From: Thauera carbonicopians
Lineage (GTDB): Bacteria > Pseudomonadota > Gammaproteobacteria > Burkholderiales > Rhodocyclaceae
Length of the DNA stretch: 64,000 nt
Direction: 5' to 3'
Assembly (NCBI RefSeq): GCF_025699485.1
Contig: NZ_JANUXN010000001.1
Span: forward strand, 62,001 to 126,000
Shown piece by piece: positions 16,348 through 27,977 of this stretch; the first letter of the stretch is position 1; every line of letters begins with the position of its first letter. Under the pieces are notes generated by a model. That model searched no databases. It was not told where the DNA came from and was given only the letters and a program-made list of their open reading frames with translations. The position numbers and the translations under genes are program-made.

Positions 16348-17265
16348 CTAGGAGGCCGTCTGCTCCTGTTCCCAGCGCTGGAAATATTCTTCCATGTGCT
16401 TGACGCAGAGCTTGATCTTGGCCGATGAACTCAGGCGCTCCGGATAGACGGCCCAGATGTTGGCTTCCTGGGTGTATTCCGGCAGTACCGTCACCAGCGC
16501 GCCGGTTTGCAGATGGCTGCCCACGTCCCAGATCGAACGCAGCGTGATGCCGTGTCCGCGCAGCGCCCAGGCGACGGCGATCTCGCCGTTGTTGGTGACC
16601 AGCGAGCCGCGCACCTTGACGTTGTAGCTGTGGCCGCGCCGCGTCAGCTTCCACAAGCCGACCGGGTGGTCGCGCTCCTTGATGATCAGGCAGTTGTGCT
16701 GCGTCAGCGCGCGCAGGTCGGCCGGCGCGCCATGCTCTTCGACGTACGAGGGCGAGGCGCAGAGCACCCGGTGGTTGCGTGCCAGGCGCCTGGCGATGTA
16801 GTGCGGCGAGATGACGTCGCCGATCCGGATGTCGAGGTCGATCTTGTTCTGCGCGAGGTCGAGCAGGTGATCCAGCACGTCGAGCCGGACCTGGATTTCG
16901 GGGTACTTGCGCGAGAATTCGGCCAGGCTCTCGCCGACCACCCGGCGGCCAAAGCCGAAGCTGGTGGATACCCGCAGCACGCCGCGCGGTTCGTTGCGCT
17001 TGACGCCGAGTTCCTCGTGCAGCTCGATGACGCTGTCGAGAATCCTGCGCCCCAGCTCATACACCTGCTCGCCCTGTTCGGTCAGGGAGACATGGCGTGT
17101 CGAGCGGTGGAAAAGCTTGCATTCGAGCTGGGTTTCCAGGGTCTGGATGCGCTTGGTAATGTAGGCCGGCGAGGCGCCGAGACGCTGCGCCGCCTGTGAG
17201 AAATTCAGTGTCCGCACCACTTCGCAGAACACCTGCAGGTCTTCGATGGAGAATTTGTTGTTCAC
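16348..17265 (-). CDS. LysR-type transcriptional regulator
   Basis: The 305-residue product has the LysR N-terminal helix-turn-helix ([33 protein letters not shown], residues about 9-41, cited here in part) and a C-terminal substrate-binding domain. It starts with GTG at 17265. It is divergent from the amidase-TRAP-asparaginase-dehydrogenase genes and separated from them by 110 bp, the usual position of a LysR activator of a catabolic operon. A weak sigma70-like pair (TTGTTC 17298-17303, TACGAT 17321-17326, 17-bp spacing) faces the amidase, consistent with a promoter needing an activator. The inducer is unknown. Confidence 0.88.
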
Positions 17266-17375
17266 GATTCGTAAAAACTGATTTCAATTTCGGCTGCTTG
17301 TTCGGCCCCGCCCCGGATCGTACGATGAATTGAACTTATCGATCCATCAAACGATTCCAGGGAAGGGGAAAGAGC

Positions 17376-18770
17376 TTGAACGCAACCGATCTCTCGCTTG
17401 CCGAACTTGCCCACGGGCTGCGCAATCGCAAGTTCAGCGCGGTCGAAATCGTCGATTGCTGCCGCGCTGCGCATGAACGCAGCGAGCCGCTGCTGAATGC
17501 CTGGAAGAGCTGGAACGGCGACGCAGCACGTCTGCTCGCCCAGTCGGTGGACGGGCTGTTCGACAGCGGGATGGACTTCGGCCCGCTGATGGGCTTGCCG
17601 GTGTCGGTCAAGGATCTCTACGGCGTGCCGGGCATGCCGGTGTTCGCCGGCACCGACCAGGCGCTGCCCGCGGCCTGGGAGGCGGCCGGCCCGGTTGCGG
17701 GCACGGTGCTGCGCCAGTTCGGCATCGTGATGGGCAAGACGCATACCGTCGAATTCGCCTTCGGCGGGCTCGGCGTCAATGCGCACTGGGGAACACCGTT
17801 CAACCCCTGGAGTGCCGACGGGCCGCGGACGCCCGGCGGCTCCAGTTCGGGCGCCGGAGTGTCGCTGGCGCAGGGCAGTGCGCTCGTCGCGCTCGGCACC
17901 GACACCGCCGGATCGGTGCGGGTGCCGGCGTCGATGACCGGCCAGGTCGGACTCAAGACCACGCATGGCCGCTGGCCGCTGGCCGGCATCGTGCCGCTGT
18001 CGCCCTCGCTGGATACCGCCGGTCTGCTGACCCGCAGCGTGGAGGACATGGCTTTCGCCTTTGCCGCCATCGACACTCCGTGCGGCGAAAGCCGGCCCGG
18101 CTGCGCCATGCCCTTGCTGGCCGGCCTGCGTCTGGGCGTGGCCGACAATTTCTTCTGGGAGTCGCTCGACCCGGGCATCGGCGAAAGCGTTTCCGCCGCC
18201 ATCGACCAACTGGCGCGCGCCGGAGCGCACGTCGTCCGGCTGCGGGTGCCGCATTGCGACGAGGTGTACGACATCTTCCGCCAGGGCGGCCTGGCGGCGT
18301 CCGAGCTTGCCGCGTTCATGAACATGGAATTCCCGGAGCGGATCGCGCGCCTCGATCCGGTCGTGCGCGCCCGCGTCGCTGCGGCGGAGCAGGTGTCCTC
18401 GGTCGAGTACCTGCGCCGCAAACAGGTGCTGCTGGACAGCGCGCGGCAGGCGACGGCGGTGTTCGCCGACGTCGATGCGCTGCTGGCGCCCACCGTCGCC
18501 GTCACGCCGCCTTTGCTGGGCGACATCGCCGACGGCACCGCCTATGCCCGAGCCAACATGATGGCCTTGCGCAATACCGTGATCGGCAATCTGTTCGGCT
18601 GGTGCGCGCTGACCCTGCCGGTGGGCTTCGATGCCCGGCGGATGCCAGTGGGCCTGCAACTGATGGGTGCGCCGATGGCTGAAGCGCGCCTGATCGGCAT
18701 CGGCCTGGCGGTCGAGGCGCTGATCGGCCGCGGGCCGGACATTCTCGGCCGTGCGCCAGCCCTTGCCTGA
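17376..18770 (+). CDS. Amidase-signature family hydrolase
   Basis: The 464-residue enzyme carries the amidase-signature catalytic triad: Lys79 in PVSVKDLYG, the cis-Ser in GGSSSGAG (about residue 157) and the nucleophile Ser180 in DTAGSVRVPAS. Such enzymes hydrolyse carboxamides in the cytosol. The start is a TTG at 17376, preceded by GGAAGGGGAA; no ATG fits the family N-terminus. It is the first gene of the unit transcribed divergently from the LysR regulator and is followed by a TRAP transporter, so it probably acts on an imported amide. The substrate cannot be assigned from sequence. Confidence 0.87.
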   Translation: MNATDLSLAELAHGLRNRKFSAVEIVDCCRAAHERSEPLLNAWKSWNGDAARLLAQSVDGLFDSGMDFGPLMGLPVSVKDLYGVPGMPVFAGTDQALPAAWEAAGPVAGTVLRQFGIVMGKTHTVEFAFGGLGVNAHWGTPFNPWSADGPRTPGGSSSGAGVSLAQGSALVALGTDTAGSVRVPASMTGQVGLKTTHGRWPLAGIVPLSPSLDTAGLLTRSVEDMAFAFAAIDTPCGESRPGCAMPLLAGLRLGVADNFFWESLDPGIGESVSAAIDQLARAGAHVVRLRVPHCDEVYDIFRQGGLAASELAAFMNMEFPERIARLDPVVRARVAAAEQVSSVEYLRRKQVLLDSARQATAVFADVDALLAPTVAVTPPLLGDIADGTAYARANMMALRNTVIGNLFGWCALTLPVGFDARRMPVGLQLMGAPMAEARLIGIGLAVEALIGRGPDILGRAPALA

Positions 18771-18842
18771 GCGGCCCTGCCTAAGCGGCCCTGCCGCATT
18801 CCGTCGTTTTTTTGCTGTGTGTTCACCAAGGAGGAGACTCGT

Positions 18843-19844
18843 ATGTTTGCCAACAACAAGAGCTGGAAGAAGATCGTTGCCGCATCCGTCGTCGGCGCGC
18901 TGTTCGCAGGTGCGGCGAATGCCGCGGACTTCAATTTCACCTTTGCCCACGTGCTGGTCGAAAGCACACCGAACGCCAAGGCCGCGGTGAAGTTCAAGGA
19001 AGAGGTCGAGCGCAACTCGAACGGGCGGATCGCGATCAACATCCGTCCTGCGGCGCAACTGGGCGGTGACGTCGAGATCATCGAGCAGACCCAGATGGGG
19101 TTGGTGCACATCGCGATTCCGCCGACCGGCAACCTGGCCAACTTCGAGCCGAAGATGTATCTGTTCGACCTGCCTTTCCTGCTCCCAGACACCGCGTCGA
19201 TGAAGCGCGTGCTGGACGGCGAAGTCGGTCGCGAGCTGCTCGACACGCTCGACAAGAGCAATCTGTACGGGGTGAATTTCTGGGGCGCGGGCTTCCGCCA
19301 CATGACCAACAACGTCCGTCCGATCACCGGACCGGATGATCTCAAGAACATCAAGATGCGCACCCTGCAGGCGCCGGCGATCCTCGCCACCTACCGTGCC
19401 TTCGGCGCCAACCCGACCGCGATGGCCTTCACCGAGGTCTACAACGGCCTGCAGCAAGGCGTCGTCGAAGGCCAGGAGAACCCGCTCGCCAACATCTACT
19501 CGATGCGTTTCCACGAAGTACAGAAGTACATGACGCTGACCGGTCATGCCTACCACACCTATGTCGCGGTGATGAACAAGGCCGCCTGGAATTCGCTGCC
19601 GGACGATCTGAAGCAGGTCATGCGCGATGCCTTCGATGCGGGCCGCGACCATGGGCGCCAGCTTACCGACGACGACGAGGCGCGGATTGTCGCCGAGATC
19701 AAGGACAAGATCGAGATCCGCGAGTTGACCCCGGAAGGGCGCGCTGCCTTCATCGAGAAGTCGCAGCCGATCTACAAGCAGTTCGAAAACCGGGTGACGC
19801 CGGCCCTGCTGGAGAGGGCCGTCAAGGCCGCGGCCGGCAACTGA
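18843..19844 (+). CDS. TRAP transporter solute-binding protein, DctP family
   Basis: The 333-residue product has a signal peptide (about 27 residues, ending AGAANA) and the DctP fold: FNFTFAHVLVESTPNAKAA at the mature N-terminus and the ligand-binding arginine region KNIKMRTLQAP, which usually clamps a carboxylate. It captures substrate in the periplasm for the DctQM permease. AAGGAGGAG (18828-18836) sits 6 bases before the ATG. It is separated from the amidase by a short stretch with a 14-bp tandem duplication and a T-run. Confidence 0.92.
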   Translation: MFANNKSWKKIVAASVVGALFAGAANAADFNFTFAHVLVESTPNAKAAVKFKEEVERNSNGRIAINIRPAAQLGGDVEIIEQTQMGLVHIAIPPTGNLANFEPKMYLFDLPFLLPDTASMKRVLDGEVGRELLDTLDKSNLYGVNFWGAGFRHMTNNVRPITGPDDLKNIKMRTLQAPAILATYRAFGANPTAMAFTEVYNGLQQGVVEGQENPLANIYSMRFHEVQKYMTLTGHAYHTYVAVMNKAAWNSLPDDLKQVMRDAFDAGRDHGRQLTDDDEARIVAEIKDKIEIRELTPEGRAAFIEKSQPIYKQFENRVTPALLERAVKAAAGN

Positions 19845-19870
19845 TCCTGGAATCGTGAGAGGGGACGGCA

Positions 19871-20383
19871 ATGCTCGAAGCACTCAACAAATGCATCGAC
19901 TGGATCGAGAACGTGATGATGGTGGTCCTGATGCTGGTCGCCACCGTCGTCGCCATCGTTCAGGTCGCGGCGCGGTATGTCTTCAACAATTCCCTGTACT
20001 GGTCGGAGGAGCTCATCCTGTATTCGCTGATCACGATGAGTTTCCTTGCGGCCAGCATGGGAGTGAGATACGCCGCCCATATTTCCGTGGAGATGCTCTA
20101 CGCCTTTGCCGGACCCCGGCTCACGCGGGTGCTGAAGTACGTGGCGGTGGTGCTCGGCCTGTTGTTCGCCGTTTCGCTGATCCATTACGGCGGCCGGCTG
20201 TTCATCAACACGCTGAACATGGGCCAGTTGTCGCCGGCCATGCAGATTCCGGTGGCCTATGTCTATCTGTCGATCCCGATCGCCGGCGTGTTCATGGCCC
20301 TGCGCTATCTGCTGATCCTGCGGACGCTGTGGAGCGGGCGGGAATACCGGCCGCTGCTGGCTTCGATCAGCCCGACGACCTGA
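19871..20383 (+). CDS. TRAP transporter small permease, DctQ family
   Basis: The 170-residue protein has four predicted membrane helices and the DctQ-typical segment RYVFNNSLYWSEELILYSL (about residue 37) followed by GVRYAAHISVEML. It forms the small membrane subunit that docks with DctM. It starts 26 bp after dctP and ends 13 bp before dctM. Confidence 0.92.
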   Translation: MLEALNKCIDWIENVMMVVLMLVATVVAIVQVAARYVFNNSLYWSEELILYSLITMSFLAASMGVRYAAHISVEMLYAFAGPRLTRVLKYVAVVLGLLFAVSLIHYGGRLFINTLNMGQLSPAMQIPVAYVYLSIPIAGVFMALRYLLILRTLWSGREYRPLLASISPTT

Positions 20384-20396
20384 GGGGAGCCGAATC

Positions 20397-21671
20397 ATGA
20401 TTTCCGCCCTGATTCCGATTTTCTTCAGCTTGCTGCTGTTCGGCCTGCCGATCTTCGCCGCGCTGGCTTTTGCCGTCACCGCGGTACTGAACGTCTCCGG
20501 CGGCATCGATCCGCTGGTGGTGCCGATGCGGATGTTCTCGGGGATGAACAACTTCTCCCTGATGTCCATTCCTTTCTTCATCCTCGCGGCCGAACTGATG
20601 CGCATCGGCGGGCTGTCGGACCGCCTGATCGAGCTGGCAAAGGTGCTCATCGGCTGGCTGCCCGGCGGGCTGGCGGCGGCCACGGTGCTGGCCTGCCTGT
20701 TCTTCGGCTCGATCTCGGGTTCCAGCCCGGCGACGGTGATCGCCATCGGCACGATCATGTACCCGGCGATGGTCAAGGCGGGCTACGACAAGTACTTCGC
20801 CATCGGCCTCATCGCCACCGCCGGCACGCTCGGCCCGATCGTGCCGCCGAGCATCGCGCTGATCATCTACGGTTCGGTCACCGGCACTTCGGTGGGCAAG
20901 CTGTTCGCGGGCGGACTGCTGCCTGCGCTGCTGATCGGCAGCCTGCTGATCGGCTATACCACCTGGTATTCGATCCTGCGCAAGTATCCGCGCGACCCTT
21001 TCCCGACGCTGCGCCAGATCGGCCATGGCTTCGGGCGCGCGGCCTGGGGCCTGGGCCTGCCGGTGATCCTGCTCGGCGGCATCTACAGCGGCGTATTCAC
21101 GCCGACGGAGTCGGCAGCGAGCGCATGCCTGTACGGCTGGTTCGTCGGCGCGGTGATCTATCGCAACATCGGCCTGCGCAGCCTGCTCGAGATCCTGCGC
21201 AACACCGGCCTGCTGTCGGGTACGCTGCTGCTGATCACGGCCGGCGCATCGGCCTTCTCGTGGATCCTGGCCTCGACCGGCACGCCGACCCAGATCGCCA
21301 CCCAGGTGCTGTCGAGCACCGATTCGCCGCTGCTGATCATGCTGTTGTTCAACGTCATCATGCTGGTCGCCGGCTGCTTCCTCGACAGCGCCTCGGCGAT
21401 CATCATCCTGGCGCCGCTGATGCAGCCGATCGCCGCGCAGGTGGGTGTTGACGCGGTGCATTTCGGCATCATCACCCTGGTCAACCTTTCGGTCGGCATG
21501 CTGACGCCGCCGGTGGGCCTGAACCTGTTCGTCGCCATGGGCATCGCCAAGATGACGCTGTACGAGATCTTCCGCGCGGCGATGCCCACCATCGCCCTGA
21601 TGCTGATCGCGCTGCTGCTGGTGACCTACATCCCGACGATCAGCATGCTGTTGCCCAACACCCTGTATTGA
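20397..21671 (+). CDS. TRAP transporter large permease, DctM family
   Basis: The 424-residue protein is built of about eleven membrane helices with DctM hallmarks: MNNFSLMSIPFFILAAELM, the GSISGSSPATVIAIG motif and TAGTLGPIVPPSIALIIYG. It is the channel subunit that imports substrate using a sodium or proton gradient. The position between dctQ and the asparaginase, with a 4-base gap-free junction downstream, makes it part of the catabolic operon. Confidence 0.94.
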   Translation: MISALIPIFFSLLLFGLPIFAALAFAVTAVLNVSGGIDPLVVPMRMFSGMNNFSLMSIPFFILAAELMRIGGLSDRLIELAKVLIGWLPGGLAAATVLACLFFGSISGSSPATVIAIGTIMYPAMVKAGYDKYFAIGLIATAGTLGPIVPPSIALIIYGSVTGTSVGKLFAGGLLPALLIGSLLIGYTTWYSILRKYPRDPFPTLRQIGHGFGRAAWGLGLPVILLGGIYSGVFTPTESAASACLYGWFVGAVIYRNIGLRSLLEILRNTGLLSGTLLLITAGASAFSWILASTGTPTQIATQVLSSTDSPLLIMLLFNVIMLVAGCFLDSASAIIILAPLMQPIAAQVGVDAVHFGIITLVNLSVGMLTPPVGLNLFVAMGIAKMTLYEIFRAAMPTIALMLIALLLVTYIPTISMLLPNTLY

Positions 21672-21679
21672 GGACGTCG

Positions 21680-22672
21680 ATGAAAACCATCCACCTGCTA
21701 TCGACCGGCGGCACCATCGCCAGCGCGCCGGGCCAGGACGGGCGCAATATTTCCGGCGCACTGCCCGGCGAGGCGCTGGTGCAGGCGCTGGCCCTGGGCA
21801 GCGAGATCCGGCTCGAAGTGCATTCGGTGCTGCAGAAGCCGAGCAATGCGATCGACGCCAGCGACTGGGCCCTGATCGCCCGCGAGTGTACCGCGCTGAT
21901 GGCTTCGGGGAAGGCCGACGGCATCGTCGTCACCCACGGCACGGACACGCTGGAGGACACCGCTTACTATCTGGAATGCGTGCTCGATACGAACCGGGTG
22001 CCGGTGGTGGTGACGGGCGCCCAGCGCGTGCCGCATGCGCTGGGCAGCGATGCCTACATCAACCTCCGGCGCGCGATCGAGGCTGCGGCCGACGATGCCT
22101 GCCGCGGCCCGGGCGTGCTCGTTGCTTTCAACGAGTCACTCTACGGCGCAAGCTTCGTGCGCAAGGTGAGCAGCTTCCGGCTCGACGGCTTCGATGCGCC
22201 CGGCCTGGGCTGCCTGGGCTTCATCGACAACGGCCGCGTCGCGCTGCTGCAACATCCGGCGCGCCAGCCGCGCCTGAGCCACGAAGCGGCGCTGCCCAGG
22301 GTGGACGTCGTCCCGGCCTATGGCGGCGCGGCCGGCGCCATGCTGGCGGCCGTGATCGCCAGCGGCCCGGCAGGGCTGGTGCTCGATGGCGTGGGGCGCG
22401 GCCATGTGCCGCCGGAATGGATGCCGGTGCTGCGCGAAGCCATCGCCGGCGGGCTGGTGGTGCTCGTGTGCAGCAGCACGCTGCACGGCGCCACCCACCA
22501 GAGCTACCAGTTCGCGGGTTCGCTGCACGAGCTTGAACAGGCGGGCGCGCTCGCCGTGGCCCATCTTTCGGCACGCAAGGCCCGCATCCGGCTGGCGATC
22601 GCCCTGGCAGCGGGCATGCGTGGACCCGAGGCATTGCGACAAGCATTCACCTGGCAGCGCGAGCGCTGCTGA
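21680..22672 (+). CDS. Asparaginase/glutaminase-family amidohydrolase
   Basis: The 330-residue product has both active-site motifs of bacterial asparaginases: STGGTIAS (catalytic Thr12) and the VTHGTDT block (Thr88-Asp89). No signal peptide is present, so it should act in the cytosol. The ATG at 21680 is chosen because it begins the family N-terminus and AGGA precedes it; a TTG at 21668 overlaps the dctM stop. The family hydrolyses the side-chain amide of asparagine or related substrates. Sitting between a TRAP transporter and a malate/tartrate-type dehydrogenase, it may act on a related hydroxy-acid amide; this is inference. Confidence 0.85.
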   Translation: MKTIHLLSTGGTIASAPGQDGRNISGALPGEALVQALALGSEIRLEVHSVLQKPSNAIDASDWALIARECTALMASGKADGIVVTHGTDTLEDTAYYLECVLDTNRVPVVVTGAQRVPHALGSDAYINLRRAIEAAADDACRGPGVLVAFNESLYGASFVRKVSSFRLDGFDAPGLGCLGFIDNGRVALLQHPARQPRLSHEAALPRVDVVPAYGGAAGAMLAAVIASGPAGLVLDGVGRGHVPPEWMPVLREAIAGGLVVLVCSSTLHGATHQSYQFAGSLHELEQAGALAVAHLSARKARIRLAIALAAGMRGPEALRQAFTWQRERC

Positions 22673-22693
22673 ACCTCTCGACAAGGAAGAAAA

Positions 22694-23779
22694 ATGTCCG
22701 CACTCAAGATCGCCGTCATCCCGGGGGATGGAATCGGCAAGGAAGTCATGCCCGAAGCGATACGCGCGCTGGAGGTGCTGCAGCAGCGGCACGGCCTCGA
22801 ACTGGTGTTCGAGCATTTCGACTGGGCCTGCGCCGAGTACTACCAGCAGCATGGCGAGATGCTGCCGCCGGACTGGTTCGAGCGCCTGAAGGGCTTCGAT
22901 GCGATCCTGTTCGGTGCCGTCGGCTGGCCCGAGGTCGTGCCGGACCACATCTCGCTGTGGGGTTCGCTGCTGAAGTTCCGCCGCGAATTCGACCAGTACA
23001 TCAACCTCCGCCCGGTGCGGCTGATGCCCGGCGTGCCGTGCCCGCTGGCCGGAAAGAAGCCGGGCGACATCGACTTCCTGGTCGTGCGCGAGAACACCGA
23101 AGGCGAATACACCGACCTCGGCGGCCGCATCTACGGCGGTACCGAGCGCGAGATCGTCATCCAGGAATCGGTCTTCTCGCGCCACGGCGTCGACCGCGTG
23201 CTCGAATACGCATTCCAGCTCGCCGCCCGGCGCGAGCGCAAGCACCTGACATCGGCGACCAAGTCCAACGGCATCGCGATCAGCATGCCGTACTGGGACG
23301 AGCGCCTCGAAGCGGTTGCCGCCGGCCACCCCGGGGTGCGCTGGGACAAGTACCACATCGACATCCTGTCGGCGCGCTTCGTGCTGTCGCCGGAGCGCTT
23401 CGACGTCGTCGTCGCATCCAACCTGTTCGGCGACATCCTGTCGGACCTCGGTCCGGCCTGCACCGGCACCATCGGCATCGCGCCGTCGGCCAACCTCAAT
23501 CCCGAGCGCCGCTTCCCCTCGCTGTTCGAGCCGGTGCATGGCTCCGCGCCGGACATCTACGGCCGCAACATCGCCAACCCGGTGGGCATGATCTGGTCGG
23601 CGGCGCTGATGCTCGAATTCCTCGGCGAGCGCCAGCCCGCCTGCGCGGCAGCGGCGCAGGAACTGCTGCGTGCGATCGAGCAGGTGCTGGAGCACGGCCC
23701 GCGCACGCCGGACCTGGGCGGCGATGCAGATACGACCGTGATGGGCAAGGCGGTCGCGGATCTGCTCGGGCGAGCCTGA
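22694..23779 (+). CDS. Tartrate dehydrogenase/D-malate dehydrogenase-type decarboxylating dehydrogenase
   Basis: The 361-residue enzyme belongs to the isocitrate/isopropylmalate dehydrogenase family. Visible motifs are GDGIGKE (about residue 11), RENTEGEYTDLGGR (about 137), the metal-binding SNLFGDILSDLG (about 243) and EPVHGSAPDI (about 277). The DLGGR variant and overall length fit the tartrate/D-malate (TtuC/DmlA) branch rather than LeuB. These enzymes oxidise and decarboxylate 2-hydroxydicarboxylic acids with NAD and a divalent metal. It is the last gene of the LysR-linked catabolic unit. The exact substrate is not determined by sequence. Confidence 0.85.
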   Translation: MSALKIAVIPGDGIGKEVMPEAIRALEVLQQRHGLELVFEHFDWACAEYYQQHGEMLPPDWFERLKGFDAILFGAVGWPEVVPDHISLWGSLLKFRREFDQYINLRPVRLMPGVPCPLAGKKPGDIDFLVVRENTEGEYTDLGGRIYGGTEREIVIQESVFSRHGVDRVLEYAFQLAARRERKHLTSATKSNGIAISMPYWDERLEAVAAGHPGVRWDKYHIDILSARFVLSPERFDVVVASNLFGDILSDLGPACTGTIGIAPSANLNPERRFPSLFEPVHGSAPDIYGRNIANPVGMIWSAALMLEFLGERQPACAAAAQELLRAIEQVLEHGPRTPDLGGDADTTVMGKAVADLLGRA

Positions 23780-23886: not shown

Positions 23887-25086
23887 ATGTTCCGCATCGC
23901 CAACTTCATCCGCGAACTCGATCAACCCACGTCGGTCGGCCCGCGCCGCAATCCGCCCGGCCCGGTGGTCATCTGGAACCTGATCCGGCGCTGCAACCTG
24001 ACCTGTGAGCACTGTTACTCGATCTCGGCGGACAAGGACTTTCCCGGCGAGCTGAACACGGCCGAAGTGTTCAAGGTCATGGACGACCTGAAGGCCGCGC
24101 GGGTGCCGGTGCTGATCCTGTCGGGCGGCGAGCCGCTGCTGCGGCCGGACATCTTCGACATCGCCCGCCGCTCCAAGTCGATGGGCTTCTATACCGCGCT
24201 GTCGTCCAACGGCACGCTGATCGACGCCTCGAACATCGATGCGATCGACGACATCGGCTTCGACTACGTCGGCGTCAGCCTGGACGGCATCGGTGTCACG
24301 CACGACCATTTCCGCCGCAAGCAGGGCGCTTTCGAGGCCTCGATGGCCGGCATCCGGCTGTGCCTGGAGCGCGGCATCAAGGTCGGCGTGCGCTACACCA
24401 TGACCGAAGGCAATGCCCACGACTTGCGTGCGCTGCTGAAGCTGGTCGAGGACGAGGGCATCGACAAGTTCTATTTTTCCCACCTCAACTACGCCGGCCG
24501 CGGCAACAAGAACCGCGCCGGCGATGCCCGCCACCGCACCACGCGCGAGGCGATGGAGCTGCTGTTCGAGACCTGTCTGGAGCTGCACCGGCGCGGCATC
24601 GAGAAGGACTTCGTCACCGGCAACAACGATGCCGACGGACCATTCCTGCTGCAGTGGGTGCAGCGCCGCTTCCCCGAGCGTGCGGCGCACATCGAGGCCA
24701 AGCTGCGCCAGTGGGGCGGCAACGCCAGCGGCGTGAACGTGGCCAACATCGACAACCTCGGCATCGTGCATCCGGACACGATGTGGTGGCACGTGCCGCT
24801 GGGCGACGTGCGCAAGCGTGCCTTCGGCGAGATCTGGAACGATCTGGACAATCCGCTGCTGGCCGGGCTGAAGCAGCACCCGCGTGTGCTCGAAGGCCGC
24901 TGTGGCGGCTGTCGTTACCTGGACATCTGCAACGGCAGCTCGCGCGTGCGTGCCTCGCAGATCACCGGCAACCCGTGGGCGGAAGATCCGGGCTGTTATC
25001 TGGACGACGACGAGATCGGTTTCGCCGGCGGCGGCGAGCGCGTCGTCACCACACCCTGGACGCGTATCGCGAAGGTGCCGGCATGA
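23887..25086 (+). CDS. nirJ: NirJ, radical SAM enzyme of heme d1 biosynthesis
   Basis: The 399-residue protein has the radical SAM cluster motif CNLTCEHCY (Cys36, 40, 43) and the C-terminal SPASM-like cysteine block (EGRCGGCRYLDICNGSSR and the final DPGCYLDDDE) found in NirJ. The segments SHLNYAGRGNKNRAGDARH and GNNDADGPFLLQW are typical of NirJ. It acts on a heme precursor (didecarboxysiroheme) to form heme d1 for cytochrome cd1 nitrite reductase. It is preceded by a DNR-type promoter and overlaps the next open frame by an ATGA. The other heme d1 genes are not in this window. Confidence 0.93.
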   Translation: MFRIANFIRELDQPTSVGPRRNPPGPVVIWNLIRRCNLTCEHCYSISADKDFPGELNTAEVFKVMDDLKAARVPVLILSGGEPLLRPDIFDIARRSKSMGFYTALSSNGTLIDASNIDAIDDIGFDYVGVSLDGIGVTHDHFRRKQGAFEASMAGIRLCLERGIKVGVRYTMTEGNAHDLRALLKLVEDEGIDKFYFSHLNYAGRGNKNRAGDARHRTTREAMELLFETCLELHRRGIEKDFVTGNNDADGPFLLQWVQRRFPERAAHIEAKLRQWGGNASGVNVANIDNLGIVHPDTMWWHVPLGDVRKRAFGEIWNDLDNPLLAGLKQHPRVLEGRCGGCRYLDICNGSSRVRASQITGNPWAEDPGCYLDDDEIGFAGGGERVVTTPWTRIAKVPA

Positions 25087-25163
25087 GAAAGAATTCCTGC
25101 GCTCGCAGCAATGTTGCGGCGCTGTCCTTTGACGGAGTGTTTTCCTCCTGGGGTAGTCCGGCG

Positions 25164-26756
25164 ATGAAGACGTCGCTGGGCGCGATCCTGTTCGGTGCCG
25201 CGATGCTGGCGGCCGGCAGCGGCAATGCAGCCGACACGGCCCGTCCCGACGTTTCCGCGCTGTATGCCCAGCATTGCGCCGCCTGCCATGCTCCCGACCG
25301 CCTCGGCGGCATGGGGCCGGCGCTGTTGCCGGACAACCTGTCCCGCCTGCGCAAGCCCGAGGCGCTGAAGATCGTTGCCGAGGGGCGCACCGCGACGCAG
25401 ATGCTGGGCTTCGCCGGGCAGTTGGACAAGGACGAAATCGCCGCGCTGGTCGACTGGATCTACAGCCCGGTCGAGCCGCCGCCGCGATGGACCGACGAAG
25501 ACATTCGCGCGTCCTGGATCCGGCATGTCGATCCGGCTACGCTGTCCGACAAGCCCGTGTTCGATGCCGATCCAATGAACGTCTTCCTCGTCGTCGAGGG
25601 CGGCGATCACCACGTCAGCGTGCTCGACGGCGACAAGCTCGAGCCCATCCACCGCTTCCAGTCGCGCTTCGCGCTGCACGGCGGTCCCAAGTTCGCCGCC
25701 GACGGGCGCTACGTGTTCTTCGGCTCGCGCGACGGCTGGATCACCAAGTACGACCTGTGGAACCTGAAGGTGGTGGCGGAGGTGAGGGCGGGCATCAACA
25801 CCCGCAACGTCGCCGCGTCGCCGGACGGCCAGCACGTCGCAGTGGCAAACTACCTGCCAAATACCCTGGTGCTGCTCGACGGCGACCTGAACCTGGTCAA
25901 GACCATCGCCGCCACCGACCGCGACGGCAAGCACAGCTCGCGCGTGTCGGCGGTGTATGACGCCACGCCGCGCCAGTCCTTCATCGCCGCGCTGAAGGAT
26001 GTGCCGGAAGTGTGGGAGATCAGCTACACCAAGGCGGTGGAAGACATCCCCACCGGCTTCATCCACGACTACGCGCAGAAAGAGGGCAGCTTCATTCCCG
26101 GCTACCTGAACCCGCGCCGCACCATCCTGCAGGAAGTGCTGGACGACTTCTTCTTCACCCAGGACTACGCCGAGCTGATGGGTGCCTCGCGCGAAGGCGT
26201 CGGCCAGGTGGTCAACCTCGACATCCGCCGCAAGATCGCCGACCTGCCGCTGGACGGCATGCCGCACCTGGGTTCGGGCATCACCTGGGAGTGGACAGAC
26301 ACTCGGACCGGCGCCGACGGCAAGCCGCGCACGGTGATGGCGAGCACCAACCTGAAGGCGGGCGAAGTCACGGTGATCGACATGAAGAGCTGGGAGGTCA
26401 TCAAGCGCATCCCCACCCGTGGTCCCGGCTTCTTCCTGCGCAGCCACGCCAACAGCCGTTATGCTTTCGTCGATTCGATGATGAGCCCGCAGGCCAAGCA
26501 CATCCTGCAGGTCATCGACAAGCAGTTGCTGGAAGTGGTCAAGGAAATCACCGGCGAGCCGGGAAAGACCCTGGCCCACATCGAATTCACCCGCGACGGC
26601 CGCTACGCGCTGGCCAGCCTGTGGGAAGACGAGGGTGCGGTCATCGTCTATGACGCCCAGACCCTCGAGGAAGTGAAACGCCTGCCGATGAGAAAGCCGG
26701 TGGGCAAATACAATGTGTGGAACAAGATCACACGCGAAGAGGGCACCAGCCATTGA
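25164..26756 (+). CDS. nirN: NirN, c-type cytochrome with heme d1 beta-propeller domain
   Basis: The 530-residue product has a signal peptide (MKTSLGAILFGAAMLAAGSG), a class I cytochrome c domain with CAACH (heme ligands Cys38, Cys41, His42), and an eight-bladed d1-type beta-propeller (about residues 135-525). It fits NirN, the last enzyme of heme d1 maturation, rather than NirS (see rejected notes). It is expected in the periplasm. An ATG at 25083 overlaps the nirJ stop but would add 27 residues before the signal peptide; I prefer 25164. It is followed closely by nnrS. Confidence 0.85.
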   Translation: MKTSLGAILFGAAMLAAGSGNAADTARPDVSALYAQHCAACHAPDRLGGMGPALLPDNLSRLRKPEALKIVAEGRTATQMLGFAGQLDKDEIAALVDWIYSPVEPPPRWTDEDIRASWIRHVDPATLSDKPVFDADPMNVFLVVEGGDHHVSVLDGDKLEPIHRFQSRFALHGGPKFAADGRYVFFGSRDGWITKYDLWNLKVVAEVRAGINTRNVAASPDGQHVAVANYLPNTLVLLDGDLNLVKTIAATDRDGKHSSRVSAVYDATPRQSFIAALKDVPEVWEISYTKAVEDIPTGFIHDYAQKEGSFIPGYLNPRRTILQEVLDDFFFTQDYAELMGASREGVGQVVNLDIRRKIADLPLDGMPHLGSGITWEWTDTRTGADGKPRTVMASTNLKAGEVTVIDMKSWEVIKRIPTRGPGFFLRSHANSRYAFVDSMMSPQAKHILQVIDKQLLEVVKEITGEPGKTLAHIEFTRDGRYALASLWEDEGAVIVYDAQTLEEVKRLPMRKPVGKYNVWNKITREEGTSH

Positions 26757-26789
26757 GTGCCCCCGCAATCCCTGACGAAGAGTAAGACC

Positions 26790-27977
26790 ATGGCCCTGAT
26801 CCCCCTCGAAGAACCGACCACCAAACGCATCCCGCCCGACACCTTCTCGCTGTGGGCGCTGGGCTTCCGCCCCTTCTACCTGCTGGCCGCGGCCTTTGCC
26901 GCGATTGCCGTGCCGATATGGGTCGTGGTCTTTTCCGGTGCGCTGCAGACGCCGATTCCCGGCATGTGGTGGCATGCGCACGAGATGATCTTCGGCTTCG
27001 CCGCGGCGGTCATCATCGGTTTCCTGTTCACTGCCGCGCGCAACTGGACCGGGCTGGACACGCCGGCCGGCGGCCAGCTCGCGGCGCTGGTCGCCTTGTG
27101 GCTGGCCGGCCGGCTGGCGATGGCCTTCGGCAGCGGCGTATGGGTGGCGGTGATCGACCTCGCTTTCCTGCCGGTGGCCGCGGCGCTGCTGCTGCGCGTG
27201 CTGACGCGTGCCAAGAGCAAGCGCAACTACTTCGTCGGCGTGCTGCCGGGCCTGCTGTCGCTGGCCAACCTGGTGTTCCATCTCGCGGTGCTGGGCGTCA
27301 TCGGCGCCGATCCGCTGGCGGCGATGCATCTCGCGCTGGGCCTGATCGTGGTGCTGGAGACCGTCATCGGCGGACGCGTGATTCCGATGTTCACCTTCAA
27401 CGTGATCCGTGGCATCAAGCAGTGGCGCGACGTGCGCCTCGACTGGGCGGCGGCGGTCTCCACCGGTATCGCGCTGCTGCTGTGGGCGGCCGGAGCGGGC
27501 GCCTGGGCTGCCGTGCTGTCCTTCGTCGCCGCGGTGCTGCAACTGCTGCGTGTCGGTGGCTGGAATCCGTGGGCGACGCGCAAGGTGCCGCTGCTGTGGA
27601 TCCTGCACCTGTCCTACCTGTGGATTCCGATCGGCCTGGCCCTGATCGGCCTGGCCCAGCTCGGCCTGCTGCCGCGCACCGCCGGCATCCACGCGCTGGC
27701 GATCGGCGCCACCGGCGGACTGATCATCGGCATGATCACCCGCACCGCGCTCGGCCATACCGGCCGCATGCTGGTGGCCGGCCCGATCGAGACCGCCGCC
27801 TACGTGGTGGTGCAACTGGCGGCGCTGGCCCGGGTGCTGACCGTGGCCGCCGTCCCCGTTGCCGCCACCGGTGGTATCCACGCCGCCGCCACGCTGTGGG
27901 CGATCGGCTTCGCGCTCTACCTGTGGCGCTACACGCCCTTCCTGCTGAAGGCGAGGGTGGATGGCAAGGCGGGGTAG
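26790..27977 (+). CDS. nnrS: NnrS family membrane protein
   Basis: The 395-residue protein has about twelve membrane helices and NnrS signatures: FSLWALGFRPFYLLAAAFA at the N-terminus, MWWHAHEMIFGFAAAVIIGF (about residue 57), and GGRVIPMFTFNVIRG (about 196). NnrS is a heme- and copper-containing inner-membrane protein tied to nitric oxide tolerance. A short GAAGAG precedes the ATG. It is the last gene of the nirJ-nirN-nnrS unit and is followed by a strong terminator. Confidence 0.9.
   Translation: MALIPLEEPTTKRIPPDTFSLWALGFRPFYLLAAAFAAIAVPIWVVVFSGALQTPIPGMWWHAHEMIFGFAAAVIIGFLFTAARNWTGLDTPAGGQLAALVALWLAGRLAMAFGSGVWVAVIDLAFLPVAAALLLRVLTRAKSKRNYFVGVLPGLLSLANLVFHLAVLGVIGADPLAAMHLALGLIVVLETVIGGRVIPMFTFNVIRGIKQWRDVRLDWAAAVSTGIALLLWAAGAGAWAAVLSFVAAVLQLLRVGGWNPWATRKVPLLWILHLSYLWIPIGLALIGLAQLGLLPRTAGIHALAIGATGGLIIGMITRTALGHTGRMLVAGPIETAAYVVVQLAALARVLTVAAVPVAATGGIHAAATLWAIGFALYLWRYTPFLLKARVDGKAG

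Follow-up and report, generated by a model that had tools for sequence, protein, structure and literature searches.

What does an operon degrade that joins two amide hydrolases to a TRAP transporter and a dehydrogenase of the tartrate/D-malate type? The question is raised by a 64,000-nucleotide stretch of Thauera carbonicopians (contig NZ_JANUXN010000001.1, positions 62,001 to 126,000; hereafter the window), in which the gene of a DmlR-like LysR regulator is divergent from the series amidase-DctP-DctQ-DctM-asparaginase-TtuC (17376-23779). A sequence-only reading had proposed the uptake and degradation of a hydroxydicarboxylic acid amide, and we found this idea strengthened, not proven. The reading we prefer, that the operon takes up a 2-hydroxy-acid amide and degrades it to the product of TtuC under DmlR-like control, receives from us a probability of about 0.42. 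New and partial support comes from the conservation of the unit, the residues of the DctP site, the DmlR-like regulator, a cassette-specific group of TtuC proteins and a Glu-to-Gln change in the asparaginase, all of which suggests a TRAP-linked catabolic operon, apparently a fresh variant, with a putative substrate. The genes that had been named were recovered at their positions, all intact, from the open reading frames (ORFs) of the window and from family matches, and no described pathway with exactly this set was found, as had been stated, in the open-access literature (most subscription papers fell outside the scope of this search).

The seven genes are one real unit, a LysR gene and a six-gene operon. 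The linkage to LysR had also been proposed, and the regulator gene, which lies just outside the coordinates first considered, indeed faces the amidase gene across 110 bp. Gaps within the operon are 48, 26, 13, -4 and 21 bp; the -4 bp gap before the asparaginase stems from a TTG start at 21668, and translation more likely begins at an in-frame ATG at 21680. The complete arrangement, with its order kept, recurs in Thauera butanivorans NBRC 103042 (on one contig, with block proteins 89-99% identical to those of the window), in another Thauera genome (G017, locus L023) and in a metagenome-assembled genome of the Alcaligenaceae (locus L018). A genome of the same order but a different family (G356) retains DctP-DctQ-DctM-asparaginase-TtuC without an adjoining LysR gene and without an amidase orthologue, its best amidase scoring 211 bits versus 837-851 for the three Thauera copies. 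Given this recurrence, the gene order is more than a chance juxtaposition. A 16-base stretch between the LysR and amidase genes, GATCGTACGATGAATT, is the same in the three Thauera copies and differs in the Alcaligenaceae locus; its palindromic core, ATCGTACGAT, has two copies in the window (at 17317 and 35165). A promoter scan gave 0 sites (mean of 0.8 in shuffled sequence) and a terminator scan 1 site (shuffled mean 3.7), neither count exceeding its mean, and a foreign base composition was not seen (65.7% G+C in the block versus 66.8% in the window).

The unit is rare. Among 101 relatives, the asparaginase was matched at E 1e-40 in seven, with at least 75% identity in three (the window's own genome, G000, and the two further Thauera genomes). 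In larger samples, where a few top candidates were scored per genome, profile matches that each time include G000 were obtained in 2 of 399 genomes of the order and 2 of 398 of the phylum for the asparaginase, in 2 of 300 sampled genomes for DctP and in 2 of 398 for the amidase. The phylum-sample genomes with the asparaginase are those with the amidase, namely G000 and G503. Plasmids gave no asparaginase match at E 1e-60.

Genome G503 leads to a second version of the core. Its family, which we take to be the Halomonadaceae from Halomonas sp. PA16-9, comprises 151 genomes, 17 of them with the asparaginase and 24 with the amidase, all of the 17 lying within the 24. We counted 18 Halomonas-type loci (L022, L054-L070), while nine further stretches around amidases of this family were searched for the cassette genes only. 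In all 18 a GntR gene is divergent from an operon of the form asparaginase-DctPQM-(carbamoylase)-(RidA)-amidase. The TRAP set is full in 16 (not in L058, and DctM is partial in L065), and the amidase is near the asparaginase in 17, in one of them in pieces (three pieces in L057, whose genome, G837, carries an intact copy elsewhere). Three of the loci hold a gene pair for L-threonate dehydrogenase and 3-oxo-tetronate kinase, together with a LacI regulator (families named on L022). TtuC was found in none of the 18 stretches; in G503 it occupies a separate locus, adjoining a LysR-like ORF. Identity between the versions is 62-64% for DctP, 46-51% for the asparaginase and mostly 52-58% for the amidase. 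As judged from these comparisons, the core common to the versions is the TRAP transporter with one or both hydrolases, TtuC being the betaproteobacterial ending, and the Halomonas-type operon is apparently an undescribed second version of it.

Evidence on the substrate begins with the importer. The complete DctPQM-type TRAP transporter that had been named is present, all three subunits exceeding their family cut-offs. In the excerpt of PMC11668362 on ten related structures, Arg152, Arg173 and Asn213 (4P47 numbering) contact the ligand carboxylate, an acidic residue at 76 typically bonds the ligand hydroxyl and an aromatic residue stands at 196. Apart from two open forms and a few others (sugar acids, orotate), these IseP-related proteins hold, according to the same excerpt, either pantoate or erythronate, which had for the most part co-purified. 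Arg160, Arg181, Asn221, Asp84 and Phe204 of the window's DctP match these excerpted positions at a constant offset of 8 (over the whole match to 4P47, the offset is 8 at the start and 7 at the end). Asp84, Arg160, Arg181 and Asn221 are invariant in nine of nine aligned relatives, and the site residues are the same in the betaproteobacterial and Halomonas-type versions. This points to a predicted hydroxy-carboxylate ligand, which the site does not name. With nine matches to the DctM family in the genome, of which eight are strong, TRAP uptake is prominent in this organism.

A second line of evidence is the dehydrogenase. By family score it is of the TtuC/DmlA type (Table 1), as the sequence-only reading had it, with an activity that is predicted; its identity to E. 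coli DmlA is 70%, and tartrate dehydrogenase 3flk matches it with 589 bits. A LeuB identity was rejected, the TIGR00169 score being 243.7 bits, below the cut-off of 353.2. This TtuC is the sole G000 protein above the TIGR02089 cut-off; another member of the family, elsewhere in the genome, reaches 237.7 bits and is presumably LeuB. In a tree of 24 proteins (five from cassettes, 18 others and DmlA; that of the 3.9-kb stretch L146 was left out), the five cassette TtuCs form a group of their own with support of 100/100 and a stem of 0.38, and the Alcaligenaceae cassette TtuC is nearer to that of the window than other Thauera TtuCs are. By this tree, TtuC has evolved with the cassette. The cassette TtuCs also share substitutions at residues 22, 29, 47, 72 and 305, which are constant or nearly so in 19 other TtuC/DmlA proteins.

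TtuC itself is common enough to provide a control, being found at E 1e-120 in 27 of 91 relatives. Out of 20 stretches around relatives' TtuC genes, we examined 19 that lack the block (L141-L159; L130, of 3 kb, was excluded). No cassette-type TRAP, asparaginase or amidase gene was found within these stretches, some of which are short; two of them (L153 and L156) hold amidase relatives of 33% and 27% identity. A divergent LysR gene (44-53% identity) lies beside TtuC in eight of the 19, as in dmlR-dmlA. The window's regulator is 49% identical to E. coli DmlR and 46% to TtdR, slightly closer to the former, and misses the TtdR model NF007315 (348.2 bits versus an equivalog cut-off of 398).

The third line is the asparaginase-type hydrolase ASPARAGINASE. 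Its two domains and the lack of a visible signal peptide agree with the cytosolic enzyme that had been predicted. It misses both subfamily cut-offs (TIGR00519, 136.4 versus 260.5; TIGR00520, 175.7 versus 314.3), which lowers the case for an L-asparaginase in the strict sense. We compared five TtuC-linked and 18 Halomonas-type copies with E. coli AnsB under six alignment settings, excluding Halomonas sp. PA16-9 (L052) from the Glu/Gln count, its asparaginase being split in two ORFs. T12, T89, D90 and K162 of AnsB are conserved in every copy of both groups (5/5 and 18/18) under all six settings; under five of six, Ser58 is kept and Gln59 is replaced by Asn in both groups. The column of Glu283, in contrast, holds Gln in all five TtuC-linked copies and Glu in all 18 Halomonas-type copies, again under all six settings; in 8h4d, the nearest asparaginase in the PDB, this position is Asp. 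In the part of PMC8460627 that treats EcAII, Glu283 of the partner subunit touches the N atom of the ligand and interacts with Tyr25 and Gln59, and changes of Glu283 lower activity 55-63 fold. Gln in this place fits what a substrate bearing OH instead of NH3+ would allow, and with the residue that holds the amino group missing, a hydroxy-acid amide rather than asparagine may be the substrate. We propose tentatively, as a possibility, that this asparaginase is a hydroxy-acid amide hydrolase, co-inherited with its own TtuC branch and TRAP transporter in an undescribed pathway.

In the pathway that we envisage, the compound imported by DctPQM would be a small carboxylate of about four carbons that bears a hydroxyl at position 2 and either one or two amides; the leading candidates are D-2-hydroxysuccinamate (D-malamate) and the tartramates. 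The known preference of TtuC/DmlA enzymes is the basis for assuming the R configuration. In the cytosol the amidase-signature enzyme, the asparaginase-fold enzyme or both, in whichever order, would strip the amide nitrogen; TtuC would then oxidise and decarboxylate the resulting D-malate (or L-/meso-tartrate) to pyruvate (or the tartrate-route product). Carbon, NADH and ammonia would be gained if flux runs, as seems probable, in this direction. Expression would be turned on by the DmlR-like protein, with the hydroxy acid as its probable signal. The excerpt of PMC5485471 gives L-2-hydroxysuccinamate as a known metabolite and omega-amidase as hydrolysing 2-hydroxysuccinamate to malate.

Several points weigh against this reading. 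The hydroxysuccinamate of that excerpt is the L-form, which would yield L-malate, not a TtuC substrate. Tyr25 of AnsB, the partner of Glu283, aligns to a gap in both groups under all six settings, and an alignment gap is close to the Glu283 column. That column holds Tyr in E. coli AnsA, an L-asparaginase, and Gly in two of three paralogues compared, so a non-acidic residue alone does not exclude asparagine. The five Gln copies are one lineage, and the change is therefore a single evolutionary event. Structure predictions were poor (three sequences each; mean predicted local distance difference test of 58.7 for the asparaginase and 35.2 for DctP), so that Glu283 was mapped through the sequence alignment alone. 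The absence of the amidase from G356 means that two hydrolases are not always needed, and in Halomonas-type operons the TRAP transporter, asparaginase and amidase are kept in the absence of TtuC, frequently together with a carbamoylase. Given these Halomonas-type contents and G356, 'amide of malate or tartrate' is the best guess.

The carbamoylases bear on a different substrate. A carbamoylase-family gene is present in 13 of the 18 Halomonas-type loci (those of L060 and L064 pass TIGR01879), a RidA-family gene in ten and a second amidase in four, and with carbamoylase and RidA so frequent, a ureide or a more complex amide has to be considered. The imported acid would then bear a ureido or N-substituted amide group, nitrogen would be stripped stepwise, and TtuC would finish the carbon skeleton in the betaproteobacterial version only. 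Equal DctP site residues in two versions of 61-62% identity suit such a shared ligand, and in G356 a gene of the ureidoglycolate-lyase family, divergent to DctP, likewise fits (L021 12766-13359; NF009932, 207.3 bits versus a cut-off of 160). However, of the five cassette loci a single one has this lyase gene, which does not pass stricter lyase models, and the betaproteobacterial unit contains no carbamoylase or ureide gene. We regard the ureide or compound-amide pathway as doubtful, at something like one chance in a few.

Another candidate is a plain D-malate or tartrate operon in which the TRAP transporter feeds TtuC and the hydrolases act on different amides, asparagine for example. TRAP systems often transport C4-dicarboxylates, and a DmlR-like regulator beside a DmlA-like enzyme is what such an operon would have. 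The hydroxy-carboxylate residue set of DctP counts on the other side, as do the failure of the asparaginase, itself without Glu283, at both asparaginase cut-offs and the fact that the transporter stays with the hydrolases at Halomonas-type loci that have no adjoining TtuC. This explanation is unlikely in our judgement, and we prefer the import of a 2-hydroxy-acid amide.

Among the parts of the operon, the role of the amidase is the least clear. Its Lys79, Ser156 and Ser180 are invariant in nine of nine aligned sequences, and a Lys-cisSer-Ser triad is the functional triad of the amidase signature family. None of the named NCBIfam amidases passed among 25 of 26 models listed (best PRK07056, 335 versus 447). 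Plasmids of Comamonas, Burkholderia and Achromobacter carry amidases about 66% identical to it, which close operons for aromatic meta-cleavage. On the Comamonas plasmid pCNB, the relative (66-67% identity) lies inside a 2-aminophenol meta-cleavage operon, and RidA-family genes are neighbours of the amidase both at Halomonas-type loci and in Gemmobacter fulvus, where RidA is divergent to amidase-DctPQM and no asparaginase was found within the stretch shown. These associations would suit an amidase that acts as an enamine deaminase in a pathway for an unsaturated amino diacid. Liu et al. in 2007 reportedly announced, in a title, a 'novel deaminase' in the host of pCNB, which we presume may be the pCNB amidase. 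Yet the Burkholderia anthina plasmid amidase (66.4% identical) sits in a catechol meta-cleavage stretch, enamines are presumably poor transport substrates, and the asparaginase and TtuC would be left without a clear role, all of which makes an enamine deaminase improbable. We regard as very improbable the known breakdown of pantothenate, in which the amidase would be a pantothenase and TtuC a decarboxylating dimethylmalate dehydrogenase, since the pantoate or erythronate of the crystallised IseP-related proteins, mostly co-purified, is set against a unit that lacks a pantoate or aldopantoate dehydrogenase, a TtuC 70% identical to DmlA, an asparaginase with no role and a search of titles and abstract starts in the open literature that found no such pathway among the matches listed.

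Table 1. Positions of the genes and of a candidate regulatory site in the window, and of related plasmid amidases in their own stretches
Feature	Position	Strand	Evidence or remark
LysR regulator, DmlR/TtdR-like	16348..17265	-	PF00126/PF03466
Possible operator GATCGTACGATGAATT	17316..17331		Between LysR and amidase genes; putative role
Amidase-signature hydrolase	17376..18770	+	PF01425, 254.3 bits (cut-off 27); Lys79, Ser156, Ser180
DctP, TRAP solute-binding protein	18819..19844	+	TIGR00787, 274.4 bits (cut-off 175.05)
DctQ, TRAP small permease	19871..20383	+	PF04290, 102.9 bits (cut-off 28.3)
DctM, TRAP large permease	20397..21671	+	TIGR00786, 408 bits (cut-off 268.45)
Asparaginase-type hydrolase	21668..22672	+	PF00710/PF17763; Gln281 at the place of AnsB Glu283
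TtuC/DmlA-type tartrate/D-malate dehydrogenase	22694..23779	+	TIGR02089, 553.7 bits (cut-off 470.4)
Plasmid amidase, L049	15001-16389		About 66% identical to the window's
Plasmid amidase, L050	10001-11389		About 66% identical to the window's
Plasmid amidase, L053	10001-11389		About 66% identical to the window's

Downstream of the operon, the window enters the start of a denitrification cluster (23887-27977), with nirJ (TIGR04051, 619 bits), an ORF that has cytochrome c and weak beta-propeller matches and reads like NirN, and a further ORF that resembles NnrS by eye. We rejected the nir genes as members of the operon: the TtuC-nirJ spacing is 107 bp here but about 1.9 kb in T. butanivorans, and nirJ is unmatched in the stretches of the second Thauera genome, the Alcaligenaceae genome and G356. 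Neither of the window neighbours metZ and nirJ had a match within the first two of these stretches.

If the preferred reading is true, the operon would bring a new enzyme activity and a nutrient class, the hydroxy-acid amides, which plants can form from asparagine, into bacterial catabolism. It would also offer a natural asparaginase with lost amino-group recognition, of relevance to medicine and food, where the specificity of asparaginases is important. A ready comparison is provided by the two versions, one with Gln and TtuC, the other with Glu and often a carbamoylase.

How does the operon compare with known systems? The pCNB amidase shares 66-67% identity with that of the window and differs in its aromatic pathway context, TRAP or asparaginase genes not being annotated in the 31 kb shown. 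Human omega-amidase is an enzyme of another family. What it shares is the chemistry proposed here, in which a C4 hydroxy-acid amide is hydrolysed, as described for L-2-hydroxysuccinamate in the excerpt of PMC5485471; it differs in its L-configuration and in having no importer or TtuC. The ttu tartrate operons, which pair TtuC with a carrier of the MFS or TTT type, have TtuC and LysR regulation in common with the window, whereas the window has a TRAP importer, two amide hydrolases and no ttuD/ttuE-like gene in the unit. Similarly, dmlR-dmlA of E. coli combines a divergent LysR gene with a TtuC/DmlA enzyme (49% and 70% identity), but the window's pair is split by five genes (amidase, TRAP, asparaginase), and its TtuC belongs to a separate group. 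The Halomonas-type operon has a TRAP transporter, asparaginase and amidase orthologous to those of the window, and it differs in its GntR regulator, in the absence of an adjoining TtuC and in having Glu, not Gln, at the amino-binding place.

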